Positions 524 to 11,471 of a stretch of 32,694 bases of DNA are shown here, in pieces. Under the pieces are notes generated by a model. That model saw only the letters and a list, made by a program, of their open reading frames with translations, had not been told where the DNA came from and did no database searches. This stretch comes from a virus. Position 1 is the stretch's first letter. Each line of letters opens with the position of its first letter. The stretch spans positions 1-32,694 of the IMG/VR virus record IMGVR_UViG_3300004448_000502. The stretch is one strand, 5' to 3'. The translations under genes were made by a program, and so were the position numbers.

Positions 524-874
524 CTATGTTACTTGAGGAGTGACTTGTATTCTCCCCTCTAATATTCTTTCTACTAAAGTGTTTCCATCGCTATCAGTAG
601 AAGTGATTTCTACATCATACACGTAACGACCTTTTGCAAGTGCACTTGTTTGAATATTTGTGAGAGAGAGACTGACAATACCGTCTGTAGTTGGGTTTGC
701 AACACCACTTGTGAATACAGTGGTGCCAGAACTATCACTGTTGTAATTCTTTTTTATCTTTGCGAAGACAGAATAATTCGTGACATCTTTTGCTGCTCCA
801 GTAAAATCTACTAAATGCAACTGTATCTCAACATCAGACCCTTGGTCGATGGTAAATTCTTCGTACTGCGCCAT
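524..874 (-). CDS. Small beta-rich virion-associated protein (fibre/baseplate accessory type)
   Basis: The protein is 116 residues from the chosen ATG. It begins MAQYEEFTIDQGSDVEIQLH and continues with alternating hydrophobic strands (YSVFAKIKKNY, GRYVYDVEIT, RILEGRIQVTPQ). This resembles the beta-sandwich N-terminal domains of phage receptor-binding or upper baseplate proteins; that is inference, as no catalytic motif is visible. The ATG at 874 is preferred over an upstream in-frame GTG at 922 for two reasons: AGAAGG lies 6 bases before the ATG, and the late promoter at 934-941 would give the GTG almost no leader. It lies just upstream of the IDSAYI-repeat gene with a 9-base gap, consistent with cotranscription. 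Confidence 0.6.
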   Translation of the reverse strand: MAQYEEFTIDQGSDVEIQLHLVDFTGAAKDVTNYSVFAKIKKNYNSDSSGTTVFTSGVANPTTDGIVSLSLTNIQTSALAKGRYVYDVEITSTDSDGNTLVERILEGRIQVTPQVT

Positions 875-933
875 GAATACCTTCTGTAATTCTTTGTCGG
901 ACGAGCGGAATCGCCCCTGCACCTATTTAATAT

Positions 934-1021: not shown

Positions 1022-1050
1022 TGCACAAACGAAAAAGGATGTGATATAAT
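1022..1050 (+). promoter_or_regulatory. Sigma70-like extended -10 promoter of the accessory operon
   Basis: TATAAT at 1045-1050 is preceded by TG at 1042-1043 (an extended -10 element). TGCACA at 1022-1027, 17 bases upstream, matches the -35 consensus at four of six positions. The predicted transcription start, about 7 bases after the -10, falls on or next to the ATG at 1057, so the first mRNA may be leaderless or nearly so. An AAGGAT at 1035-1040 is too far from the ATG to be a normal ribosome-binding site. The rest of the 875-1056 region is AT-rich and contains the minus-strand late promoter but no other gene that I can see. Confidence 0.6.
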
Positions 1051-1056
1051 AGATAT

Positions 1057-2193
1057 ATGATAATAAAAAAAGCATGCGTAACTGGTATTGGTATGATTGA
1101 TTCTTTAGGTAATAATCCTAAAGAATGTTTTAAAGGTCTAATTAATAATCGAGATTATCATCAGAAAATTGATTCTATTTGCCCTGATTACAGTAATCAA
1201 TTTGGTTTTTTTCCGAAAACAGAAACAATACTTCCTAACAAAATTAATAAACGACATTTAGTAAGATCTTTAGAGTATGGTATACATTCTGTTGATCAAG
1301 CTATTTTTGATTCTGGTGTACGAATGTCAGAAAATGTTGGTGTATTCTATTCTTCACTTACAAATGGGAACGATTATAAAAAAAATTTTATAAATCAAGA
1401 AAAATTTAGGCATATAAGAAAAAGCACAAATGGATTATTAGATTCTATTGCTAGTTATATTTCAATTTACTATGGATTTAAAGGTGTTAATACATGTCTA
1501 CAATCTGCGTGTGCAACGGGATTAGTTACAATTGATTTCGCAATGAACTATATTGATGAATATGATTACATTATTGTTGGTGGTGCAGATGCAGGATGTA
1601 ATAATATTGACATGAAACTTTTCAATATGTTACATGCAACTGGTACTCGATCAATGCCATTTGATGAAAAGAGAGACGGATTTATTATGGGTGAAGGTGC
1701 TGGTTGTTTAGTATTAGAATCAGAAGAAAAGGCAAAAGCAAGAAACGCAAAAATATATGGTTATGTTTATCCGGCAGGACATGCATCAGATGCTTTTGGA
1801 CAAACAAGTCCAGATGGTTCTGGTGCATTACTTTCTATGAAAAAAGCAATTCAAAATAGCGGTTTATATCCCAATGTTGTTAACGCCCATGGTACTAGTA
1901 CTCCATCTGGTGATGAGGTGGAATATAATTCAATAAAACAAATATTAGATAAACCTATCTATTCTGTAAAAGGTAAGATTGGTCATACGTTTGCTGCTGC
2001 AGGAATACTTGAGGTAATCTATTCTTTCCTTAGTATGAGTAATCATGTTATACCACAAACATTTGGTTGTGTGAACACTAAGATGGACATAGTAAAAGAA
2101 AATATAAATAAATCTACTAACGTAACTTTAAAAAATTCGTTTGGCTTCGGTGGTAAATGCTGCAGCATGATTATTGAGGGAAATAATGATTGA
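1057..2193 (+). CDS. 3-oxoacyl-[acyl-carrier-protein] synthase (KAS I/II, FabF/FabB-like)
   Basis: The 378-residue protein is a thiolase-fold condensing enzyme, which would join an acyl group to malonyl-ACP by decarboxylative Claisen condensation. All hallmark motifs are visible. They are the nucleophile Cys152 in QSACATG, the PFDEKRDGFIMGEGAG segment at 201-216, His278 in NAHGTSTPSGD, Lys305 and His310 in KGKIGHTFAAAG, and the glycine-rich NSFGFGGKC near 360-368. The Cys-His-His triad and the Lys-to-His spacing of 5 match E. coli FabF. It is about 30 residues shorter than FabF (412 aa), mainly in the N-terminal half. No acyl carrier protein gene is present in the window, so it would have to use the host ACP. 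It is first in the accessory operon and overlaps the next gene by 8 bases. The specific substrate is unknown; the FabF-type family call is firm. Confidence 0.93.
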   Translation: MIIKKACVTGIGMIDSLGNNPKECFKGLINNRDYHQKIDSICPDYSNQFGFFPKTETILPNKINKRHLVRSLEYGIHSVDQAIFDSGVRMSENVGVFYSSLTNGNDYKKNFINQEKFRHIRKSTNGLLDSIASYISIYYGFKGVNTCLQSACATGLVTIDFAMNYIDEYDYIIVGGADAGCNNIDMKLFNMLHATGTRSMPFDEKRDGFIMGEGAGCLVLESEEKAKARNAKIYGYVYPAGHASDAFGQTSPDGSGALLSMKKAIQNSGLYPNVVNAHGTSTPSGDEVEYNSIKQILDKPIYSVKGKIGHTFAAAGILEVIYSFLSMSNHVIPQTFGCVNTKMDIVKENINKSTNVTLKNSFGFGGKCCSMIIEGNND

Positions 2194-2833
2194 AATTTTT
2201 GATATTGAAGATACTTCTTTTTTAAAACAATATGAAAAAGAATTAATGGAGCAAGAAGAAAAGGTACAAATGGCAGGAGCAAAAATGCTTTTCAATCTGC
2301 CTCAGTACCAAATGAGACAAGATATTACGAAAAGATTATTTTCTCATTTCGATAATTTGTTTTATCCAAATTATATTCGGGTAGATCATACATCTTATAT
2401 TTTTAGATTTAAACCCGATACACCTACAATGCTTCCTCATGTAGATTTCGATTTAGAAACATGTAAACATATTAAGGATAAAGCAAAAAGAGTTATTATA
2501 TATGTAAATTCAGTGTGGGATACAAAATGGAAAGGTGGAACTTACTTTGATGCTTTCGAAAATCATAAAGTAAATTCAAGGTCAGTAGCAAAAACACCAA
2601 AGTCTAAATTTACAGAACAAGCAACTTATGTAGAAAATGTGCCTGGAAGAGCAGTTGTATTTGATCCAGATGAATTACATTTACCTGATGAATGTAGTGG
2701 AAATAATGTACAACGTTTGACCTTTGCGGGATTAATTGTCCACCCAGATTATCACTATATTATAAAAGAATTAGAAGGACCGGATAACATTAATGGAAGT
2801 TCAGTTACTCGTGTTTCGTCTCCCCAGATGTAA
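2186..2833 (+). CDS. 2-oxoglutarate/Fe(II)-dependent oxygenase (prolyl-hydroxylase-like), copy A
   Basis: The 215-residue protein has a full set of 2OG-oxygenase ligands. H85 and D87 in LPHVDFD form the HxD iron site, H165 in PDELHLPDE is the distal iron ligand, and R177 in NNVQRLTF sits 12 residues later where the 2-oxoglutarate-binding Arg is expected. WKGGTYFDAF at 115-124 matches the GGTxF strand common in prolyl-4-hydroxylase-like domains. The ATG at 2186 overlaps the ketoacyl synthase stop and has GAGGGA upstream, so it is preferred to the in-frame TTG at 2174. Such enzymes hydroxylate proteins, sugars, lipids or small molecules, and the substrate here is unknown. Its 3' end overlaps an opposite-strand gene by 79 bases. 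Confidence 0.82.
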   Translation: MIEIFDIEDTSFLKQYEKELMEQEEKVQMAGAKMLFNLPQYQMRQDITKRLFSHFDNLFYPNYIRVDHTSYIFRFKPDTPTMLPHVDFDLETCKHIKDKAKRVIIYVNSVWDTKWKGGTYFDAFENHKVNSRSVAKTPKSKFTEQATYVENVPGRAVVFDPDELHLPDECSGNNVQRLTFAGLIVHPDYHYIIKELEGPDNINGSSVTRVSSPQM

Positions 2834-3303
2834 AAAGTTTGTAGTAAATTATTATAGAAAAGAGGTGTGGGATATCTTTTCCAATACGATGCTCCAAATC
2901 TCAAAAGTAAAGAATCGACCTGTGTTTTCTTTTTTTCTATATTTCGGGTAAAGAAAAGTGTATCAACATATCGGCGGTGGAATTGAGGATTATCTTTATA
3001 AAAGTTAAAAGTTAGATTCATACCAACTTGATGGTGGTGTTTTTGATTTGCATAAGTTCTAAAAAAAGCACGTGCAACTTGTTGGTTACCTAAATTTTCT
3101 AAACCCCAAATATGGGCAGGAGAATCATCAACAAAAAAGAGAGTCATAAAGAAACATCGTGAAAGGGTTTTATATGCATAATTACATTTTAGTTTATTTT
3201 GTTTGTCGGTTCTCGCAAGTAATAAGATATCATGGTATTCCTGTATTGGTTCATCAAATACAAGAACCTTTATCCTATCAGAATATCGAATTGTAGTAAT
3301 CAC
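2755..3303 (-). CDS. Unknown protein encoded against the accessory operon
   Basis: This 182-codon frame is the only open frame filling 2834-3304. Its composition looks genuinely protein-like, with aromatic-rich, evenly spaced hydrophobic strands such as RCFFMTLFFVDDSPAHIWG and QVARAFFRTYANQ. I do not recognise the family. The strand pattern of the first 100 residues is faintly reminiscent of GNAT acyltransferases, but I see no clear acetyl-CoA loop. The only available start is GTG at 3303, with weak GGAA upstream. It begins 1 base from the ATG of the divergent gene at 3305, and its C-terminal 26 codons overlap oxygenase A. Everything else between 1057 and 8747 is on the plus strand, so it is either an independently acquired gene or part of an inverted cassette. 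Confidence 0.55.
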   Translation of the reverse strand: MITTIRYSDRIKVLVFDEPIQEYHDILLLARTDKQNKLKCNYAYKTLSRCFFMTLFFVDDSPAHIWGLENLGNQQVARAFFRTYANQKHHHQVGMNLTFNFYKDNPQFHRRYVDTLFFTRNIEKKKTQVDSLLLRFGASYWKRYPTPLFYNNLLQTFYIWGDETRVTELPLMLSGPSNSFII

Positions 3304-3304
3304 T

Positions 3305-3793
3305 ATGTTTCCAATCTATCAATTTATTTATCCTTTTAATACTTATGCTTTACTTACAGAGTTAGAATACTATCGCGATGAGTTTAAGGCTTATGAAGAT
3401 GTGAGATATGATGCACTTGATAATTGGAAAGTATTAAGAGATAAACCTCTACGCGCATTGACTAAACAATACTATAAGTTTTGTGATGACACAGGATTGG
3501 AAGGTAAACCTCGATATTATATTTTAGATGGCAAATCTATGTTACCGCCACATGTTGATTTAAATACTGAATGTTCTATCAATCATTTATTATCAGGAAA
3601 TGCAGCACCAATTACATATACAAAATATGGAAACTTTGAATATAAAACTGCATTAATAAATACAAAAGAAGAACACTCGGTAAATAACGCAGAGTATAAT
3701 GATAGATACTTATTCAAAATTTCATTTTTCAATCATACGTTCGAAGAAGTGAAGGATAAAATACTTGCTTACAAAACTAGAACAAAAGTTTGA
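3305..3793 (+). CDS. 2-oxoglutarate/Fe(II)-dependent oxygenase-like protein, copy B
   Basis: The 162-residue protein begins MFPIYQFIYP. It shows a compact double-stranded beta-helix signature: H83 and D85 in PPHVDLNTEC (HxD), H124 in KEEHSVNN and R134 in NDRYLFKISF. The distal His and Arg are 10 residues apart, as in small aspartyl/asparaginyl-hydroxylase-like enzymes. The longer in-frame extension upstream to 3203 is only the antisense of the opposite-strand gene and was not used. No convincing ribosome-binding site precedes the ATG, so how it is translated is unclear. The end overlaps the next gene by 29 bases. The substrate is unknown; its neighbours suggest a shared pathway. Confidence 0.75.
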   Translation: MFPIYQFIYPFNTYALLTELEYYRDEFKAYEDVRYDALDNWKVLRDKPLRALTKQYYKFCDDTGLEGKPRYYILDGKSMLPPHVDLNTECSINHLLSGNAAPITYTKYGNFEYKTALINTKEEHSVNNAEYNDRYLFKISFFNHTFEEVKDKILAYKTRTKV

Positions 3794-4244
3794 TCACAAA
3801 GAGCTGTTAAAAATTTACAGCAGTATGGTTAAAAAACATTCACAAATTCACATCTCTTCTCCAGATGGGAAAACATATTGGTATGAGAGCGGTGATCTTC
3901 GTAAATATAAATTAGATCAAAATGACTTCACAGAAGTGAACAGTTTTTTTAAGGGAACTTATGTTGAATCTGTTTACAAAGAACTAGACATGTGTTATAA
4001 TACATGCAGAGGTCGATTTATGACTTTGACTTCTGATAATCGTGCGTATTCATATCACTATGATATGACAAAAAGAATACACATTCCTCTTATAACACAT
4101 GACGATTGCATGTTTATTGTTGATGACAATGTATATAAAATGCCTGAGCTTGGTAAGGCGTATATGCTAGACACAACAAAGAAACACACTGCATTAAATT
4201 TAGGATGGGACCAAAGAGTCCACATGGTTGTATGCTTGAAATAA
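3765..4244 (+). CDS. Aspartyl/asparaginyl beta-hydroxylase-like oxygenase, copy C
   Basis: The 159-residue protein closely matches the Asp/Asn beta-hydroxylase pattern. H98 and D100 lie in YSYHYDMTKR, followed by R104 and the strand RIHIPLIT. H141 is in KKHTALNL and R151 in DQRVHMVV. This is the HxD...H...R set of a 2-oxoglutarate/Fe(II) enzyme that usually hydroxylates protein side chains or modifies lipids or peptides. The TTG at 3765 is chosen because GAAGGA lies about 8 bases upstream; a downstream ATG at 3825 would remove 20 residues without touching the catalytic core. It overlaps both neighbours (29 and 13 bases), consistent with translational coupling. Confidence 0.8.
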   Translation: MLTKLEQKFDHKELLKIYSSMVKKHSQIHISSPDGKTYWYESGDLRKYKLDQNDFTEVNSFFKGTYVESVYKELDMCYNTCRGRFMTLTSDNRAYSYHYDMTKRIHIPLITHDDCMFIVDDNVYKMPELGKAYMLDTTKKHTALNLGWDQRVHMVVCLK

Positions 4245-4951
4245 TTTATAAAATTTGGCCACAATTTAGAGAATTGCCTGAAGAAAAGGTTATTCGATGG
4301 TATGAGACATATAATGTTCAAACCACGATTGAAAACGAAAAATATTTTGCATTACATACTTCTCCACTTGTACCAACATCAATGATTATCGATGTTGATT
4401 TATTTCATAATGAAATAGAAAAATATAGAAATCACTTTACCCGATGGGGCATTAATCATGTCAATTTTCCAAGATACGGCATACCTCTAACAAATTTAAC
4501 CGGCAGTTTAGAAGAAAAAAACGACCCATCACGTATGCCTCTTGACGAACATTTTATGTACCATCAAGATAAAGATATTATACATGATAATGATATAAAT
4601 GTGCATACTGAAATTTGTGATTTATCTAGTTTAGATCCTATTAATCCAATTAAATCTTATCTTGTGCGCAGTAGCATTTTACGATGGGATACAATGGGTC
4701 ATTTTAAACCACATATTGATGTGGGATTGCCTGCACCAAACTTAAGATTATGGGGTACAACTAATCCTAATATGCGTTTAAAGATTGGTGGCGAAATGAT
4801 AAGAAATTTTGAGCCTGGTCGTATCTATATCATAGATACATCAAAAATTCATGAAGGATGGGCAACTGATAATAATGTATATCAATTTTTTATTGGATGT
4901 AGTATAGAATCGTATGAAACACTCTTACAACTTTCTCAAGTCAATAGGTAA
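4232..4951 (+). CDS. 2-oxoglutarate/Fe(II) oxygenase-like protein, copy D (Arg not found)
   Basis: The 239-residue protein resembles copy C in its C-terminal half. H161 and D163 in FKPHIDVGLP form the HxD site, R172 sits in the LRLWGTTN strand, GEMIRNFEPGRIYIIDTS follows, and H207 in KIHEGW is the distal ligand. The expected Arg about 10 residues after H207 is replaced by Tyr217 in NNVYQFF. It may therefore bind a different co-substrate or have lost normal catalysis. An extra N-terminal region of about 140 residues has no recognisable motif. ATG 4232 overlaps the preceding stop; a possible TTG/GTG extension upstream is not supported. No clear ribosome-binding site is seen, which suggests coupling to the previous gene. 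Confidence 0.72.
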   Translation: MLEIIYKIWPQFRELPEEKVIRWYETYNVQTTIENEKYFALHTSPLVPTSMIIDVDLFHNEIEKYRNHFTRWGINHVNFPRYGIPLTNLTGSLEEKNDPSRMPLDEHFMYHQDKDIIHDNDINVHTEICDLSSLDPINPIKSYLVRSSILRWDTMGHFKPHIDVGLPAPNLRLWGTTNPNMRLKIGGEMIRNFEPGRIYIIDTSKIHEGWATDNNVYQFFIGCSIESYETLLQLSQVNR

Positions 4952-5738
4952 TCCATTCTTTCCAGAAGAAGCGAATGATATTATCCTTCTTCCAGATTGT
5001 TTTAATGCTGCTTTGATTAGTACGACTATAGCAAATACACTAGCTCATAATTTAAAATTATATAATTGTGGTCTTATCGGTAATACGATTAAGATATGTA
5101 TAGTAATTAATGATTCTGAAAAAGGGAAATATAAAAAAAAAGATGAAGAAACAAATCTAGAAAGATTAATTTTTGTATGTAACGAATTCGAATCAAATGG
5201 TCTGGATATTCGATATTCTATTTTTTCTGTGAATAAAATAAATTACGCCGCTCATGAGCAGTGTAATTCAATGTGGTATTTCAAAAGACAATGGGTCGGT
5301 GATAAGAATCAGATTATGGTAAAAAAGTCAAGCCCAGTCGGATACTCACAATTTGAATTTCAAACAAGAAATATAAATCTAAATTTTGTATATGAGTATG
5401 CAAAGGAAAAACATCTGAAAGTAATTGAATTTGATTATAGCAGTAAGTATGATTGGTTATTAAATGAGATGATTCATTCTAAGTTTATTGTATCTGAATT
5501 CGGAGGTCTATCTATTCTAGGTGTTTTCGCAAAGTGTCCAGTTTTTATTGTAACAGAAGGACTGATATCAATTGTCATTGGTGGTGAAAGAAAAGTTGTC
5601 ACATATGGCAACGGAAATTTATCTACATCATCTATTATCGATCATATTGATCAAGGATTGATAGAACAAAAACCGTATAACGGATTTCTTAAATGTATTA
5701 CTCCCAAAGATAAAAATAAATTAGGTAAGGTGCTATGA
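4914..5738 (+). CDS. Unknown protein, possibly glycosyltransferase-like
   Basis: The 274-residue protein begins MKHSYNFLKSIGNPFFPEEA. I do not recognise it with certainty. The C-terminal part contains a conserved-looking patch (HSKFIVSEFGGLSILGVFAK, residues about 187-206) followed by CPVFIV. This resembles the nucleotide-sugar side of GT-B or capsule-type glycosyltransferases, where a surveyed residue patch precedes a strand and a short loop. Its position before three DxD glycosyltransferase-like genes makes that role plausible but unproven. It overlaps oxygenase D by 38 bases and ends in an ATGA overlap with the next gene. Confidence 0.5.
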   Translation: MKHSYNFLKSIGNPFFPEEANDIILLPDCFNAALISTTIANTLAHNLKLYNCGLIGNTIKICIVINDSEKGKYKKKDEETNLERLIFVCNEFESNGLDIRYSIFSVNKINYAAHEQCNSMWYFKRQWVGDKNQIMVKKSSPVGYSQFEFQTRNINLNFVYEYAKEKHLKVIEFDYSSKYDWLLNEMIHSKFIVSEFGGLSILGVFAKCPVFIVTEGLISIVIGGERKVVTYGNGNLSTSSIIDHIDQGLIEQKPYNGFLKCITPKDKNKLGKVL

Positions 5739-6157
5739 TTATTACCGGTATGCAGGGTGCAGGTAAAACAACTGCATGTAATTACCTCAGTAAAAAATGG
5801 GGGAAAAAATCTTTAATATTTCCTAAAGAAAAAATGAACAATATAGATGATTATAGAAACCAATTAATAGAATTTTGTAATAGCAACGATATTGTCGATA
5901 TGGCGATAGGAGAAGCATCAGCGACTAGATTATTAGAACTAGAGTGCACTATTATTTTAATTAAAACAGAAAAAATAATTAGGATTGATAGAATATCAAA
6001 AAGAAATTATAAAACAAGAATGGAAATACAATCTTCATATGAAAAAGTTTGGGAAGGAATAGAACGTGCACAAAGTATAATAAATCCGAACATCACTATT
6101 ATTAATAATTCTACCATTGAAAATTATTACCAAGAATTGGATAAATTATGTCTGTAA
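5735..6157 (+). CDS. Small P-loop kinase-like protein
   Basis: The 140-residue protein starts MIITGMQGAGKTTACNYL, a Walker A motif (G5 to T12) at the extreme N-terminus, as in nucleoside-monophosphate and shikimate-type kinases. A basic segment, RIDRISKRNYKTR (about residues 83-95), looks like the Arg-rich lid of small kinases. No clear Walker B was assigned, but the ECTIILI strand near residue 70 could serve. It would transfer a phosphate from ATP to a small molecule, possibly a sugar or nucleotide, or could be a DNA/RNA kinase relative. AGGTG precedes the ATG, and its start overlaps the previous stop (ATGA). Confidence 0.7.
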   Translation: MIITGMQGAGKTTACNYLSKKWGKKSLIFPKEKMNNIDDYRNQLIEFCNSNDIVDMAIGEASATRLLELECTIILIKTEKIIRIDRISKRNYKTRMEIQSSYEKVWEGIERAQSIINPNITIINNSTIENYYQELDKLCL

Positions 6158-6753
6158 ACGTAAAAAAATACTGCGTAAAAGTTGGTACTAAATATAAAAA
6201 TGAAAATGTATATCGTTTAGCGGAAATGATAGGTGATCTAACTGTGATCACAGATGACTTTAGCTTAGCAAAAGACTTTAATGTAATTGAAGCAAAATAT
6301 CCTGGCGTCTGGAATAAAATGATGTTTTTCAATGAAACAGAATTTCCTAGAGGAATTTTCTTTGATTTAGATATTAGTGTCCATAAAAAAATTGATAATG
6401 TATTTCAACCAAGCGAATACATGAGATTAGCATATACAGATTGGGAAGATCTAAAAATACTGGAAAGTTATACGATTGGCGACAAATACAAATACTGCAG
6501 TATCAATTCGTCTGTTATGTCATGGAATGAAAAAACAAAACGACAGCATGTATGGCTTCAGTTTCTACGAGACTATGATAAAGCTGTGAGGTTATTTAAT
6601 GGTATTGATACATATTTAGAACATAGACATTCAGATTCAATTGACTTCTTTCCAACTGGTTTAATTGATTCTTATCGTTGTAATCCATATGCAGACGTGC
6701 ATATTATGTCATATGATGGAGAAGGTAAAGATGCGTACTTTAACAATGGATAA
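6148..6753 (+). CDS. Glycosyltransferase-like protein with DxD motif (1 of 3)
   Basis: The 201-residue protein opens VKKYCVKVGTKYKNENVYRL, similar in outline to the gene at 7339 (MIHVICSKWGTKYSSIYVN). It carries a DxD motif at residues 73-75 in GIFFDLDISVH, the metal and nucleotide-sugar site of GT-A enzymes. The first strand with its GTKY loop is shared by the three related genes here. The C-terminal part (residues 120-201) has several aromatic and acidic residues but no further motif I can name. It overlaps the preceding gene by 10 bases and the next by 23. Transfer of a sugar to a phage- or host-surface acceptor is inferred. Confidence 0.7.
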   Translation: MSVNVKKYCVKVGTKYKNENVYRLAEMIGDLTVITDDFSLAKDFNVIEAKYPGVWNKMMFFNETEFPRGIFFDLDISVHKKIDNVFQPSEYMRLAYTDWEDLKILESYTIGDKYKYCSINSSVMSWNEKTKRQHVWLQFLRDYDKAVRLFNGIDTYLEHRHSDSIDFFPTGLIDSYRCNPYADVHIMSYDGEGKDAYFNNG

Positions 6754-7342
6754 AATACCTATTCCTTTTTGGGAATATTCGAGATGTATTCAAAATTTAA
6801 ATCACGAAGAACCTACAAGAGTCAGTGACTTTGCTAAATCATTTTCTGAAAATCAAGTTTATGCAAAAACATGGTTAATCGAACATCTCTTTATGTCCGG
6901 TGATCATGAAGATAAAAATGTATGCATTCTCGGTGGGTGGTATGGTACAGTATTGGTACCTCTTTTAGAAAATAAAATTAAAACTCGCAATATTCGTTTA
7001 ATTGATTTTGATAGGAAAACATGTAATATCGCAAAACGTATTTTTCCTTATATTGAAGTAGAATGTTTGGACATAAATTTTGATCTAGAAAATTTATCGA
7101 GTGATATTATTATCAATACATCTTGTGAACATATGTTACCAATGCGTGAGTTTGATTTAAATGGTCTTTGTGTGTTCCAATCAAATAATTTTAGAACAGA
7201 AACATCTCATATTAATTGTGTAGATTCCGTAGAAGAATTAGTTGAGCAGTCGGGTATTACGAATGTAATTTATAAAGGTGAAACACAATTTCATAGATGG
7301 GATAAAGAGCATAAAAGATATATGGTTATCGGTGAAAGATGA
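6731..7342 (+). CDS. SAM-dependent methyltransferase-like protein
   Basis: The 203-residue protein has the class I methyltransferase layout. Motif I-like strand and glycine loop are VCILGGWYGTVLVPLL (64-79), and the acidic residue at the end of the next strand is D92 or D94 in LIDFDRK. A distinctive NTSCEHML (129-136) follows, then FQSNNF near 149-154. I recall the NTSCEHM and QSNN pattern from marine phage methyltransferases. AGAAGG lies 5 bases before ATG 6731, so this start is preferred to an upstream in-frame codon at 6665. The substrate is unknown; O-methylation of a sugar or lipid would fit the neighbours. The end forms an ATGA overlap with the next gene. Confidence 0.72.
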   Translation: MRTLTMDKIPIPFWEYSRCIQNLNHEEPTRVSDFAKSFSENQVYAKTWLIEHLFMSGDHEDKNVCILGGWYGTVLVPLLENKIKTRNIRLIDFDRKTCNIAKRIFPYIEVECLDINFDLENLSSDIIINTSCEHMLPMREFDLNGLCVFQSNNFRTETSHINCVDSVEELVEQSGITNVIYKGETQFHRWDKEHKRYMVIGER

Positions 7343-8118
7343 TTCATGTTATTTGTTCAAAATGGGGAACAAAATATTCTTCGATATACGTTAATACATT
7401 ATATAATATGGTAAAAAAACATTTACCAACTAAATTTAAATTTTATTGTCAAACAGAAAATTCATGTGGATTAAATACCAATATAGAAGTATTACCATTC
7501 GGAACAGAATTACCCGAATCAACTCCCGAAGCAATGATAGAATCGACAGAATATCTTAATGGATTGCCAAGGTTATGGGATAGACCGAAACTTAATTATT
7601 TCAATCCCGAATGCTGGGGATTAGATGGTATAAAAATAGCACTTGATATTGATATTATCATACATAACGATATGAAACCACTTCTCGATTTATTTCAAGA
7701 TAAGCCGATTACTGGAAGATCTTGGTGGCATAATATGGATAATGAAGCAAAACCACAATGGCGCAAAAGATATTGTGCAAAAAATAATGGTGGATTTTAT
7801 ATGTGGGAAGGAGATATGTTTCATTCGATATGGGATGATTTATTAAAAAACTGGCGTAAAATATATTTTTGTTTTCATGGTGGTTCTGACAATTTTATTA
7901 CAACAAGGCATTTAGATTTATTCGATTTTGTGCCACCAGAAATGTATTATTCATTTAACTGGGGATGCGAATGGCCAGATGATATGAGTTTACATAAAAT
8001 AAGAGAAGATAAAATTATATGTGTTTTTAATACTGATGCACAAAAAAGAAATGCTACAAAACTTGAATTACATCAGTGCGTAAAACTTTATCCAAGAGTA
8101 AAAGAATTATGGAAGTAA
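7339..8118 (+). CDS. Glycosyltransferase-like protein with DxD motif (2 of 3)
   Basis: The 259-residue protein is the longest of the three related proteins. It begins MIHVICSKWGTKYSSIYVNT, with a DxD at 103-105 in KIALDIDIIIH. A region rich in Trp and Asp (RSWWHNMDNEAKPQWRKR, about 126-143) and the NNGGFYMWEGD stretch near 149-159 resemble acceptor-binding parts of GT-A-type transferases. The start overlaps the previous stop (ATGA), with GGTGAAAG upstream. The end overlaps the next gene by 10 bases. A family number could not be assigned from sequence alone. Confidence 0.7.
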   Translation: MIHVICSKWGTKYSSIYVNTLYNMVKKHLPTKFKFYCQTENSCGLNTNIEVLPFGTELPESTPEAMIESTEYLNGLPRLWDRPKLNYFNPECWGLDGIKIALDIDIIIHNDMKPLLDLFQDKPITGRSWWHNMDNEAKPQWRKRYCAKNNGGFYMWEGDMFHSIWDDLLKNWRKIYFCFHGGSDNFITTRHLDLFDFVPPEMYYSFNWGCEWPDDMSLHKIREDKIICVFNTDAQKRNATKLELHQCVKLYPRVKELWK

Positions 8119-8747
8119 AGATATATGCGGTTCGTGTTGGTAGTCGTTATGGTATTGAATTCGAAAAATATCTCAAAGATAAAATACCAAACATAAAATT
8201 TTTAAATGAAGAACGTGAAAATTTTAAACTTCAATGGAATAAATTGCATTTTTTTAATCTTGATATTGATGAACCGATATGTGTAATTGATATTGATATA
8301 GAACTAATAAACGACTATATAAAAATATTTGAATATCCAATACAAAGAGGTGAGTTTCTTACACTTGATTGTTGGTGGGATGATAGACCAATTAATGGTG
8401 GATTTTATAAATTTTATCCTTCAGATGTAAAATTTGTATATGATGAATTTAAAAAAAATAAAAATTATTGGGAAAAATATTTTATAGAGAATGGAACAAA
8501 ACCTGGACCAGTAAATGGAGAAGAAGATTTCGTATACCATATGGTAAAAGATGTATTAGAAATTAAATATCTTCCAAGTACTTGGGCAACAAAAATGAAA
8601 TCAAACCCAAACCGAAAAGAATTATTTCAATTAAATAAAAAATATCCAGGATATCCAGTCGAATATCTTTATCTAGATGGTTTTAATCAAGATATTAAGC
8701 TGATTCACTATCTATATCTGAACCGAATTTATTCTCGGCTTGGGTAA
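8109..8747 (+). CDS. Glycosyltransferase-like protein with DxD motif (3 of 3)
   Basis: The 212-residue protein begins MEVKIYAVRVGSRYGIEFEK, sharing the VGSRY/GTKY start with the other two. Its DxD is at 61-63 in ICVIDIDIELIN. PINGGFYKFYPSD (about 94-106) parallels the NGGFYMW stretch of the previous gene, which supports common ancestry. It is the last gene of the operon, and its 3' end overlaps the convergent structural gene by 53 bases. No obvious hairpin terminator is seen here, so plus-strand transcripts may read into the late genes as antisense. Confidence 0.68.
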   Translation: MEVKIYAVRVGSRYGIEFEKYLKDKIPNIKFLNEERENFKLQWNKLHFFNLDIDEPICVIDIDIELINDYIKIFEYPIQRGEFLTLDCWWDDRPINGGFYKFYPSDVKFVYDEFKKNKNYWEKYFIENGTKPGPVNGEEDFVYHMVKDVLEIKYLPSTWATKMKSNPNRKELFQLNKKYPGYPVEYLYLDGFNQDIKLIHYLYLNRIYSRLG

Positions 8748-9234
8748 TTAGACCAGAATTAGAAACTATATTAATTAATTCGGTTGGAGTTTTTGCTGTT
8801 CTAATTGATTCTTTTAATCCAGAATCTTCACAATCAGATATTTCTTCTATTTCAAATACTGCTAATTTCATATTAAAAAGACCCTCATCATGATATTCTG
8901 AATTGAACTTAAAAATAAAATTGAAAAGTTTATCGTAATTTGTATTATCCGACTTCTCTTGAAAAGCAGATGTAGAAATTTCGCCACTATCAATTAACTT
9001 CTGATGGAAATCGATAATTCTTTTTTGAATCTGTTTACCATATTCTATGGTATCTTCTTCAATTTGATCAAGTGTATATATCTTGATCAAATTTTTAAAG
9101 TTTACATCATTTTCATCAACCGAAATGTATTGTGCTCGAATAGTATTGGTATCAGCATTATCTGCCCATTCCGCAAGAATTGTAGTTCTATCGTTATCCG
9201 TAAATCGAGCAGTTAAAAGAGTATGTCCTTGCAT
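8695..9234 (-). CDS. Conserved-looking phage protein of unknown function in the structural block
   Basis: The 179-residue acidic protein begins MQGHTLLTARFTDNDRTTI. Its middle part (about residues 55-120) looks helical and highly charged, and its C-terminus is DIDSESA. I do not recognise a domain. AGGA precedes the ATG by about 7 bases, and the gene lies 2 bases after its upstream neighbour in transcription order, so it is probably the last gene of the late operon. Convergent overlap of 53 bases with the last glycosyltransferase gene is seen. A virion or assembly role is inferred from position only. Confidence 0.55.
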   Translation of the reverse strand: MQGHTLLTARFTDNDRTTILAEWADNADTNTIRAQYISVDENDVNFKNLIKIYTLDQIEEDTIEYGKQIQKRIIDFHQKLIDSGEISTSAFQEKSDNTNYDKLFNFIFKFNSEYHDEGLFNMKLAVFEIEEISDCEDSGLKESIRTAKTPTELINIVSNSGLITQAENKFGSDIDSESA

Positions 9235-9236
9235 AG

Positions 9237-10229
9237 TTAAGTCCTATAAATTTTTAATGCGTATGTTGTTTCTGTTTCACCAGCACCAGATGGTAAATTC
9301 TGTGATCGATAAGTATCAACGTCTTTATCATCGATTCTTACTTGTGAATTTAATGTTGTATCAGTCATAACGTCACCACGAGTTTGAGGTGTGCTATCAT
9401 TGCCAGTTATCGTACTAATGTCAGTACCCGATACACCTTGAACTTGATATCTAATACGATATGTATTTCTAGAATTAGCTGAATAGAATAACAAATCTTC
9501 TAATATCGAATCAAACTCAGCAGTAGAATAACTTTGTAGATCGTTATCAGAATTAATATAGAGAGGTAATTGAACACTTGGTATCCCATAAGAATTTCCT
9601 TGATTGGTTCTCCACAGATACCAATTTTGGATAGTAGTAGTTGTGGTACCAGATAAAGGTAATATTTCAGTAATGGATCCATCACCACCATGTATGGATA
9701 GATCAAATCTTGTATCAACGAAAACAGGATTAGCATTCATAAGAGTATGATTTGCTAAACCTGACGACTGAGTTGAAATACGATACGTTCCATCTCTATC
9801 GTTACCATCAACAAGTAAGTTAGTGGCATCATTAATAAATGTATCATGCATGTCTGTTTTAGACATTGCTTGAAGATTATCAGAACCATCATAATATAAA
9901 GGATATAATTTATTATTTGTATCTGTAGGATCAGAAGGACCTGTGAGAGTAAGATTTATATGATCATATGTGGTAGAGATACCAGCGTCTGTTGTGTTTT
10001 CTACAGTATTACTACTAAATCTACGATTATTACTTACTTCGGCACTTGGTGAGTCAGATGTGTCAAGCATTCTTCTACGATCGCCGGCGCTTGCAACATA
10101 CGATAAATTAACAGATCTACTCGATCCACCAAAAAGGTAAACGCATCTTTGTTTAATTGTGGTTATTTGAGAAGCCGACATCTGTACGATGCTCGAGCCA
10201 TCCCAATAAACCGGTGTTCTTACTGCCAT
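9237..10229 (-). CDS. Virion structural protein, probably fibre or baseplate-associated
   Basis: The 330-residue protein begins MAVRTPVYWDGSSIVQMSAS. It is rich in Ser, Thr, Asn and Asp, with short repeated beta-type segments such as LYPLYYDGSDNLQAMS and LPLYINSDNDLQSYS. These look like two copies of a motif of the form LPLYY-x-S-x-DNLQ-x-[MY]-S. This composition and the LYY(D)GSDNLQ pattern are typical of marine myovirus tail-associated proteins. No enzymatic motif is present. Its start overlaps the upstream gene's stop by one base. Placement in the gp9-gp12 part of a T4 map suggests a fibre-network role, but no homologue of those proteins is recognisable. Confidence 0.6.
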   Translation of the reverse strand: MAVRTPVYWDGSSIVQMSASQITTIKQRCVYLFGGSSRSVNLSYVASAGDRRRMLDTSDSPSAEVSNNRRFSSNTVENTTDAGISTTYDHINLTLTGPSDPTDTNNKLYPLYYDGSDNLQAMSKTDMHDTFINDATNLLVDGNDRDGTYRISTQSSGLANHTLMNANPVFVDTRFDLSIHGGDGSITEILPLSGTTTTTIQNWYLWRTNQGNSYGIPSVQLPLYINSDNDLQSYSTAEFDSILEDLLFYSANSRNTYRIRYQVQGVSGTDISTITGNDSTPQTRGDVMTDTTLNSQVRIDDKDVDTYRSQNLPSGAGETETTYALKIYRT

Positions 10230-11266
10230 TATAAAGTTCCGCTAGTATTACTTGTAGATAATAAATACCCAGCTAAAAGAGTTGTTCCTGCTGAATTTTT
10301 TATTTGCAGTGGTTTGATATTATCAAGATTAACACTTTCCATTATCAGTGTTGTGACAGTAGCAGTTCCTATTGAAACAGATCCAATTGTACCACCTTGA
10401 ATTTTATCACCCGATATTTGATCATTTGCTAAAGTTAGTGTTCCACCTGATACGTCAACAGAACCAGTCAAAGTTCCTGTGACATCAACACCAGTGTTCG
10501 TAGTTGCAAGTCTACTGACATTATCATGATAAAGATTAACTGCTCCATTTTCAAGACCAGCAAAAACATTTTCACCAGAAAAAGTTTGAACTTGTAATCT
10601 ATCAGTTCGAATAAAAAGAGTCCCTGAACCTGTCTCATCTATATAAGAATGAGTTCCATTATGGTAAATTTTAAGATCATCATTATCCCCAAAATTTACT
10701 TTGCCATTGTCTCCTAAACTCAAATCAGTAGCATTTTGAAGAGTGATGTCTCCATTCATTTGAATGTCATCCTGAGTGAATTTCATTCTCTCGACAAAAT
10801 TACTATCTCTTATTATGAAATTTTCATCATACTTTATTCGTAAATCACCCGAACCATTTATTATATCACCAGTTACACCATCATGGTAAATTTCGAGATC
10901 GTCATCACCTATCTGCTCATTCCATATAATTTTAGATCTACTCGGTAATCTAACATCATCGGAGTCTGCGAATGTCAAATCTCCATTCCAACGAGTAGAA
11001 CTCAAGTCTGTAATTTCACCATTGTTAGCAACCATATCACCTATAGTGAATGTATTGGTAGTAAAGTATGTTGCAACATCTGAAGCGATTTCTTGTGTTT
11101 CATCAATTTGAATTATTTTTGCTTGAATTTCATTGATAGCTGAAACAAGACTACTGGTATCATCAGTAGTAAGTACGTCTTTATCACCCATATTGGTAGA
11201 AATTTGATTTGTTTTAGTTACAAGTGAAGCAACTGGATCTGTAAGATTAATGGTTGTTATCGCCAT
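10229..11266 (-). CDS. Tail fibre-like structural protein with IYH-D/N-G repeats
   Basis: The 345-residue protein begins MAITTINLTDPVASLVTKTN. It contains repeats of the type L-x-IYH-[DN]-G-(x)-IxxxGSG-x-L-x-I: DLEIYHDGVTGDIINGSGDL, DLKIYHNGTHSYIDETGSGT and the shorter VNLYHDNVSRLAT. They predict a trimeric beta-structured fibre. The pattern occurs widely in marine phage fibre and structural proteins. The C-terminus after residue 260 is a Thr/Ser/Gly-rich stretch. The start overlaps the next upstream small gene by 20 bases, indicating an operon. Host-adsorption function is inferred. Confidence 0.68.
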   Translation of the reverse strand: MAITTINLTDPVASLVTKTNQISTNMGDKDVLTTDDTSSLVSAINEIQAKIIQIDETQEIASDVATYFTTNTFTIGDMVANNGEITDLSSTRWNGDLTFADSDDVRLPSRSKIIWNEQIGDDDLEIYHDGVTGDIINGSGDLRIKYDENFIIRDSNFVERMKFTQDDIQMNGDITLQNATDLSLGDNGKVNFGDNDDLKIYHNGTHSYIDETGSGTLFIRTDRLQVQTFSGENVFAGLENGAVNLYHDNVSRLATTNTGVDVTGTLTGSVDVSGGTLTLANDQISGDKIQGGTIGSVSIGTATVTTLIMESVNLDNIKPLQIKNSAGTTLLAGYLLSTSNTSGTL

Positions 11267-11471
11267 TTTTTTCCTCTAATACTTTCATTAAAAGATGTTT
11301 CATTTCTTTCACTTCATCACGAAGAGATTCGATTTCTTTTCTTTCTTGGGAAGCTTTATATTTTCTTTTTTTAGCTCGTGATATTTCTTCACTGTTTATA
11401 TTTACAATCGCTCCGCTTGCTTTGTCTCTCACTAAACTTGAATTATTTTCAACTTTAACATATTTATTCAT
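11247..11471 (-). CDS. Small coiled-coil protein, unknown function
   Basis: The 74-residue protein begins MNKYVKVENNSSLVRDKASG. Residues 33-68 form a strongly charged, probably coiled-coil helix (KKRKYKASQERKEIESLRDE). Small proteins starting with a KVENN-x-LVRD-type segment occur beside large structural genes in marine T4-like phages, to my recollection, but their role is unknown. The gene is wedged between the 1719-residue protein (sharing one base at 11471) and the fibre gene (20-base overlap). It may be a chaperone or minor structural protein. Confidence 0.65.
   Translation of the reverse strand: MNKYVKVENNSSLVRDKASGAIVNINSEEISRAKKRKYKASQERKEIESLRDEVKEMKHLLMKVLEEKNGDNNH

Follow-up and report, generated by a model that had tools for sequence, protein, structure and literature searches.

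Do the genes for a ketoacyl synthase, several oxygenases and glycosyltransferases and a methyltransferase that stand in one tight run in a phage genome form a single biosynthetic pathway, or were separate systems brought together at a variable site? The question is raised by a stretch of 32,694 nucleotides (IMG/VR virus record IMGVR_UViG_3300004448_000502, positions 1 to 32,694; hereafter, the window), the linear 32.7 kb contig of an uncultured aquatic T4-like myovirus. An initial annotation, made from the sequence alone, had proposed one route leading from condensation on acyl carrier protein (ACP) to glycosylation and methylation. We found instead two modules that occur apart in other phages: a cassette formed by a beta-ketoacyl-ACP synthase (KS) and an Fe(II)/2-oxoglutarate (2OG)-type oxygenase (OX1), and an island of further oxygenase, glycosyltransferase and methyltransferase genes (the GT/MT island). 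This architecture is well supported. Concerning function, our reading is tentative, and we give it slightly less than an even chance: the locus would be a tail-fibre-adjacent variable island of two modules, in which KS-OX1 tailors the acyl chains of the host envelope by means of the host's ACP.

The operon, at 1057-8747, comprises 11 plus-strand genes and one minus-strand gene, X, and is flanked by minus-strand tail genes at 524-922 and from 8695 onward:

524-922, minus strand: m132, tail-fibre-assembly-like; left border of the island, outside the pathway
1057-2193, plus strand: KS, beta-ketoacyl-ACP synthase of a phage-specific clade (PF00109, PF02801)
2186-2833, plus strand: OX1, Fe(II)/2OG-type oxygenase pairing with KS (HxD...H...R)
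2758-3303, minus strand: X, conserved gene of 182 aa between OX1 and OX2, possibly a GNAT-like acyltransferase (weak)
3305-3793, plus strand: OX2, 2OG-type oxygenase (invariant HxD...H...R)
3765-4244, plus strand: OX3, Asp/Asn beta-hydroxylase-like 2OG oxygenase (PF05118)
4205-4951, plus strand: OX4, 2OG-type oxygenase with a variant 2OG-binding site (conserved residues, PDB profile matches)
4914-5738, plus strand: GTa, putative enzyme with a GT-B-like C-terminus by eye only, conserved in contigs L013 and L016
5735-6157, plus strand: small P-loop kinase-like protein of 140 aa (AAA_18)
6148-6753, plus strand: GTb, GT8-like glycosyltransferase, member of the GTc alignment
~6731-7342, plus strand: MT, class I methyltransferase / spermine-synthase-fold protein (PF01564)
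7339-8118, plus strand: GTc, GT-A-fold glycosyltransferase (AlphaFold model, Foldseek, DxD)
~8109-8747, plus strand: GTd, glycosyltransferase related to GTc (invariant DID, profile match)
8695-11471, minus strand: m179, m330, m345 and m74, tail genes; right border of the island

Most neighbouring operon genes overlap, and since homologues of every one of them except the small P-loop protein are found in independent contigs, we consider these reading frames to be real genes. The initial annotation had correctly recognized an operon between two minus-strand structural blocks; its "about ten plus-strand genes" are 11, and it missed X. Its start at 1022 is a promoter-like hexamer of a type equally frequent in shuffled sequence. 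A promoter scan gave sites no more frequent than in shuffled sequence, and a search for RNA elements found none. A reading of the locus as a defence system was dropped, as PADLOC returned generic P-loop matches only.

KS is, by its residues, an intact condensing enzyme. It matches PF00109 (5e-27) and PF02801 (7e-22), its top PDB matches are FabF (E 8e-48), and Cys152, His278, Lys305 and His310, together with F364, G365 and G366, are invariant in 20 sequences; the Cys-His-His plus Lys active site and the GFGG gate required of KAS I and KAS II enzymes are therefore all present. The ketoacyl synthase call of the initial annotation is confirmed by these data, and the enzyme does not look nonfunctional, which that annotation had named as a ground for refutation. 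KS thus shares with FabF/FabB (KAS II/KAS I) the fold, by homology, and the full catalytic residues, but it differs from them in forming a separate clade, in its shorter N-terminal half, in an acyl-pocket loop that departs from the bacterial GSGxGG motif, and in a C-terminal GFGGKC where FabF/FabB have GFGGTN. Its score against the NCBIfam FabF equivalog TIGR03150 is 243.5 bits, for a cut-off of 493.75, and it has no PHROG match.

Single-sequence queries with KS or OX4 retrieved no confirmed relatives from viral contigs, and a two-sequence KS alignment gave no matches in genomes; alignments were required for the viral contigs, where an alignment-based search yielded 190 confirmed KS hits. We analyzed 83 KS loci (designated here, like other contigs, by L numbers), which fall into 30 clusters, or lineages, at 90% identity. 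In the tree, a single branch sets the phage KS sequences apart, with support of 84/45 when the long-branched L132 is included and 94/92 when it is not, and they are split from all sampled bacterial FabF/FabB at 100/99. The nearest bacterial sequences reach at most ~34% identity over full-length matches (partial matches, up to 40%); the clade is provisional, because bacterial sampling covered best-scoring hits only. Among deposited phage records the best matches are 28-39% identical and the clade itself is absent; many of these matches are unverified or bacterial-looking and were left out of the phage KS count. Some deposited "phage" records of unverified status, for example OR846837, OR848561 and OR844991, carry chromosomal-looking FabF-type genes. 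Pairwise dN/dS (non-synonymous to synonymous substitution) ratios within the clade are mostly 0.01-0.3, and the clade is under purifying selection.

In the oxygenase that follows KS, the HxD (H84/D86), H164 and R176 are all invariant. OX1 has weak matches to PF13640 and to PHROG 274; the label of the latter, "DNA endonuclease V", was not accepted because the HxD...H...R pattern contradicts it. A PDB profile search with OX1 gave no significant relative. OX1 comes directly after KS in five KS lineages (the window, L182, L134, L154 and L167), and the strong OX1-family matches in 30 KS records number five, every one directly downstream of KS. The pair occupies two kinds of site. In the window and L182 it sits between m132 and X-OX2, and in L134, L154 and L167 it lies near gp32 (assigned by eye) with no GT island. 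L016 holds an island with an X-like gene and OX2 from which KS-OX1 is missing, and carries a KS elsewhere, at 47.2-48.4 kb beside a lipoprotein gene, next to the same series of genes that leads to the gp32-like gene (again by eye) in L134-type phages. In L119, L120 and L124, KS adjoins m132; downstream of it come a different 2OG-like gene, genes for a fatty-acid desaturase and a radical SAM enzyme, and GTc-like genes, small genes (methyltransferase or other) and GTd-like genes. KS-OX1 is therefore an independent two-gene cassette at the island edge. In L134, L154, L167, L180, L181 and L122, KS directly follows a conserved lipoprotein gene a few genes before the gp32-like gene; this site is possibly the other hypervariable region, where pelagimyophage curli-like genes are reported.

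This distribution bears directly on the proposal of a single pathway, in which the acyl chain made by KS would be hydroxylated by the oxygenases and then joined and capped by the glycosyltransferases and the methyltransferase, the product being a glycolipid made by the phage or a modified lipid A. All the genes do form one tight run in the window, a single island of L182 combines similar genes, and GT8-like enzymes are often lipopolysaccharide transferases (PMC7029224). However, the cassette is absent from the L016 island and present near gp32 where there is no GT island, L016 keeps its KS and its GT/MT core at separate sites of one genome, any KS is found in only 3 of 50 contigs with the GT/MT core, and at many KS loci neither a GT nor an MT is close by. 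We therefore consider a single pathway improbable. Separate occurrence of the genes in other phages, which the initial annotation had named as the observation that would speak against it, is thus found between the two modules but not within them.

Concerning the second module, its position could be established from related phages. The window carries a T4-like gene set (gp32, gp6, gp8, gp53, gp5-type, tail-tube and tube-cap genes). Judged by gp8, its nearest relative among deposited phages is C48C1 (37%), which has the gene order of the window but lacks the island between tail genes; a near-identical contig, L002, stops short of the island. A tBLASTn search with the MT and GTd genes identified Pelagibacter phage Mosig EXVC030M (MT647606), whose 54-72 kb region is bounded by homologues of the window's flanks, m132 on one side versus m330, m74 and VrlC on the other. 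m132 shares 45% identity with Mosig_00070, annotated as "putative tail fiber protein", and 36% with gp061 of HTVC008M, annotated as "L-shaped tail fiber protein assembly", and also borders the island in L016, L015, L119, L120, L124 and L133. On the right, m330 and m74 are 32% and 35% identical to Mosig_00097 and Mosig_00099, m345 matches tail-fibre PHROGs, and the order m179-m330-m345-m74 is kept in L013, L015 and L016. The Mosig island shares with that of the window homologous MT, GTd, GTb-type and OX4-type genes, but has no KS and contains instead aminotransferase, carbamoyltransferase, radical-SAM and desaturase-type genes.

The island OX2-OX3-OX4-GTa-(P-loop)-GTb-MT-GTc-GTd recurs, whole or in part, in many IMG/VR contigs. 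L016 and L015 have the arrangement m132 / OX2...OX4-GTa-...-GTb-MT-GTc-GTd / m179-m330-...-VrlC-gp8, and L013, whose contig lacks the left end, is syntenic from a truncated OX3 onward. Cassettes come and go: in some contigs, additional GT8 genes and genes of the radical-SAM, aminotransferase and QueC-like PP-loop types stand between GTa and GTb. The islands of L108/L133 (3-6 kb) and L013 (2190-5552) contain, as inserts, an aminotransferase together with radical-SAM/SPASM enzymes and PP-loop ATPases of the QueC type, which may point to one more modified small molecule.

Zaragoza-Solas et al. (2020; PMC7029224) described, between VrlC and gp14, a hypervariable island in which tail fibres are accompanied by radical-SAM cassettes and GT8 transferases, the "host recognition cluster" (HRC), which they link to O-chain modification against coinfection. 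The island of the window has beside it a VrlC-like gene and the tail-fibre genes of this T4-like phage (gp14, the other published border, is outside the window), and its content is variable, non-syntenic and includes glycosyltransferases. Because both content and position match, the GT/MT island is of the HRC type. The suggestion of the initial annotation that the genes serve surface modification is supported by this equal position in related phages.

The enzymes of this module are recognizable to different degrees. OX2 has no Pfam match and no significant relative in a PDB profile search, and its H90, D92, H131 and R141 are invariant in 6 homologues. OX3 matches PF05118 (1e-7) and is 56% identical to its counterpart in L016; this family presumably also includes lipid A hydroxylases such as LpxO, which we take as a lead only. 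In OX4, H170, D172, R181 and H216 are invariant in 10 homologues; the HxD...H is present, the usual Arg ~10 residues past the second His is absent, and the invariant Arg181 is found instead. A profile search of PDB with OX4 found proline hydroxylases and one beta-hydroxylase (E about 0.001-0.006). The four oxygenases of the initial annotation thus stand as regards OX1, OX2 and OX3, which carry HxD...H...R, while OX4 departs from that motif.

Among the predicted glycosyltransferases, the GTc AlphaFold model (predicted local distance difference test, pLDDT, 88) has a GT-A fold, with LARGE1, UGGT and LgtC as best Foldseek matches (E about 1e-9 to 1e-7); this fold was checked by model for GTc only, GTb and GTd being assigned by alignment or profile. 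GTc is 78% identical in L013, and GTb 66% in L013 and 53% in L015; the DxD is invariant in the GTb/GTc alignment (A8). GTd, 33% identical to Mosig_00092, has a DID (D60, D62) invariant in 18 homologues (alignment A9) and aligns at profile level with the family of GTb and GTc (E 3e-18); a two-sequence alignment scan of IMG/VR gave 26 GTd loci. A PDB profile search with the glycosyltransferase alignment gave no significant relative. GTa, conserved in L013 (47%) and L016 (26%), has no Pfam match and no significant PDB profile match; its family being undetectable, the glycosyltransferase label is unproven, and the initial annotation holds in this respect for GTb, GTc and GTd.

The methyltransferase it had called is supported by a PF01564 match (1e-5) and 34% identity to Mosig_00090 ("putative methyltransferase"); a two-sequence alignment scan of IMG/VR viral contigs gave 593 confirmed relatives, 80 of which were kept for analysis. 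The kinase reduces to the small P-loop protein (AAA_18, 1e-9), whose kinase activity is putative; it has no homologue in the fetched loci, and L016 has a different P-loop-like gene at its position. X has homologues in L108 and L021 (34-39% identity) and distant ones in L016 and L119/L120/L124. Its structure model is of low confidence, with best PDB matches mostly to GNAT acetyltransferases and non-significant, and a PDB profile search gave no significant relative.

Such a set of enzymes may also decorate the virion. According to this alternative, 2OG hydroxylation, glycosylation and methylation would act on the adjacent tail fibres, KS-OX1 being either a passenger or a protein-modifying pair. 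The island always adjoins tail-fibre-type genes, the protein-directed transferases UGGT and LARGE1 are among the closest folds of GTc, and the Asp/Asn beta-hydroxylase family of OX3 includes some protein-acting members. However, adjacency to fibres is equally expected of any variable region that governs host range, a KS could hardly act on protein, and desaturases neighbour KS in many phages. We consider this explanation unlikely, if still worth attention.

The genes found around KS speak more directly of its role. A 2OG oxygenase lies within two genes of KS in 15 of the 30 lineages, versus 56 of 747 (7.5%) other genes at the same loci. As some of the models behind this count had been built from genes adjacent to KS, which inflates it, we added a test with two Pfam 2OG models that do not derive from such neighbours: 17 of their 32 matches fall within 6 kb of KS, for 7.8 expected (p 0.0001, a value that overstates independence, since some contigs hold several matches). 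Of the 30 lineages, 13 have a fatty-acid desaturase at the KS locus, versus 11 of 105 background viral loci. Whole-contig counts with the Pfam desaturase model differ little (14/48 vs 11/50), because divergent L184-type desaturases, which we identified by their histidine boxes, score below that model. In L201 (9977-12807), the KS gene overlaps that of an acyl-ACP desaturase (PF03405, 4e-52), and a PhyH-type oxygenase gene comes next; the desaturase neighbour argues for acyl-ACP as the substrate of KS. Two further 2OG oxygenases lie just upstream of this pair. What looks like a lipid-modification cluster occupies ~15 kb of contig L132 (IMGVR_UViG_3300023179_000086, 73 kb), where a divergent KS is accompanied by eight fatty-acid desaturases and a Rieske protein.

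KS might instead serve general auxiliary metabolism of membrane lipids, boosting or redirecting fatty-acid elongation or unsaturation in the host, a role proposed for the lipid desaturases of cyanophages, with OX1 incidental. The frequent desaturases, the overlapping pair of L201 and the presence of KS alone in several phages are all consistent with this. Nevertheless, OX1 is found directly after KS and nowhere else in the 30 records, and both the score far under the FabF cut-off and the unusual acyl-pocket loop set KS apart from an ordinary elongation enzyme; we therefore judge such a general role quite unlikely.

We return to the tentative reading of KS-OX1 as a tailor of host acyl chains. 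In this model OX2-GTd would carry out surface decoration by 2OG hydroxylations, GT8-like sugar transfers and methylation, directed at the host O-chain or surface glycan, or at the phage's own fibres or tail proteins. KS-OX1, inserted at the island edge, would take acyl chains from the host acyl carrier protein and elongate them by condensation, and OX1 would oxidize the product or a lipid bearing it; in other phages the partner of KS would be another 2OG family and/or a fatty-acid desaturase. We infer that the resulting change of acyl chains in host phospholipid or lipid A might favour virion production or block superinfection.

Several observations weigh against this reading. The 2OG families beside KS are unrelated to one another, and their variety could reflect only the 2OG-rich hypervariable regions of marine phages. 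OX1 matched no known lipid hydroxylase, and is not an obligate partner, given that KS has no adjacent oxygenase in the L139/L156 type, L122, L180 and L181. The window itself has no desaturase. As for the use of host ACP, a search of 24 viral records, of which 20 bear a KS in addition to that of the window, found no ACP gene, with control genomes scoring as expected; this absence fits the model, but is weak evidence, as most records are incomplete.

Comparison with known systems indicates what is specific to this locus. The HRC of pelagimyophages and cyanomyophages is alike in its hypervariability, its place beside a VrlC-like gene and tail fibres, its richness in GT8 and its radical-SAM cassettes, but ketoacyl synthases and oxygenases are unmentioned in the paper's text (PMC7029224), and KS-OX1 is an addition in the window. 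Within its tail region, HTVC008M has four consecutive 2OG oxygenase genes, likewise on the strand opposite to their surroundings, but these are other oxygenases at a slightly shifted position, with no KS, GT or MT. Rhodobacteraceae prophages also bear a KS for fatty-acid synthesis, but their fabG-acpP-fabF copies the bacterial fab order with ACP and FabG (PMC8224337), whereas the KS of the window belongs to another clade and is accompanied by an oxygenase only. The fabF reads reported from viromes (PMC10653327) are different from the KS cassette of the window. The literature searched, whose coverage of subscription journals was partial, yielded no HRC-type island combined with a KS cassette of the phage clade, so that a prior description is possible.

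What is already known is the island type, and what appears to be new is its joining to a phage-clade KS cassette. Our data suggest that many phages of aquatic habitats may remodel the fatty chains in their hosts' envelopes. A broader proposal, that aquatic phages own an ancient lineage of condensing enzymes which, together with partner 2OG oxygenases and desaturases and by way of host ACP, would make acyl chains foreign to the host and alter the envelope of the infected cell, is possible but doubtful at present. Phage desaturases are already known; if true, the coupling of oxygenases to a phage KS clade of at least 30 lineages would extend phage influence from the saturation of carbon chains to their construction. 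As a defined two-gene cassette, KS-OX1 would make the substrate of marine-phage 2OG oxygenases testable in at least one case.

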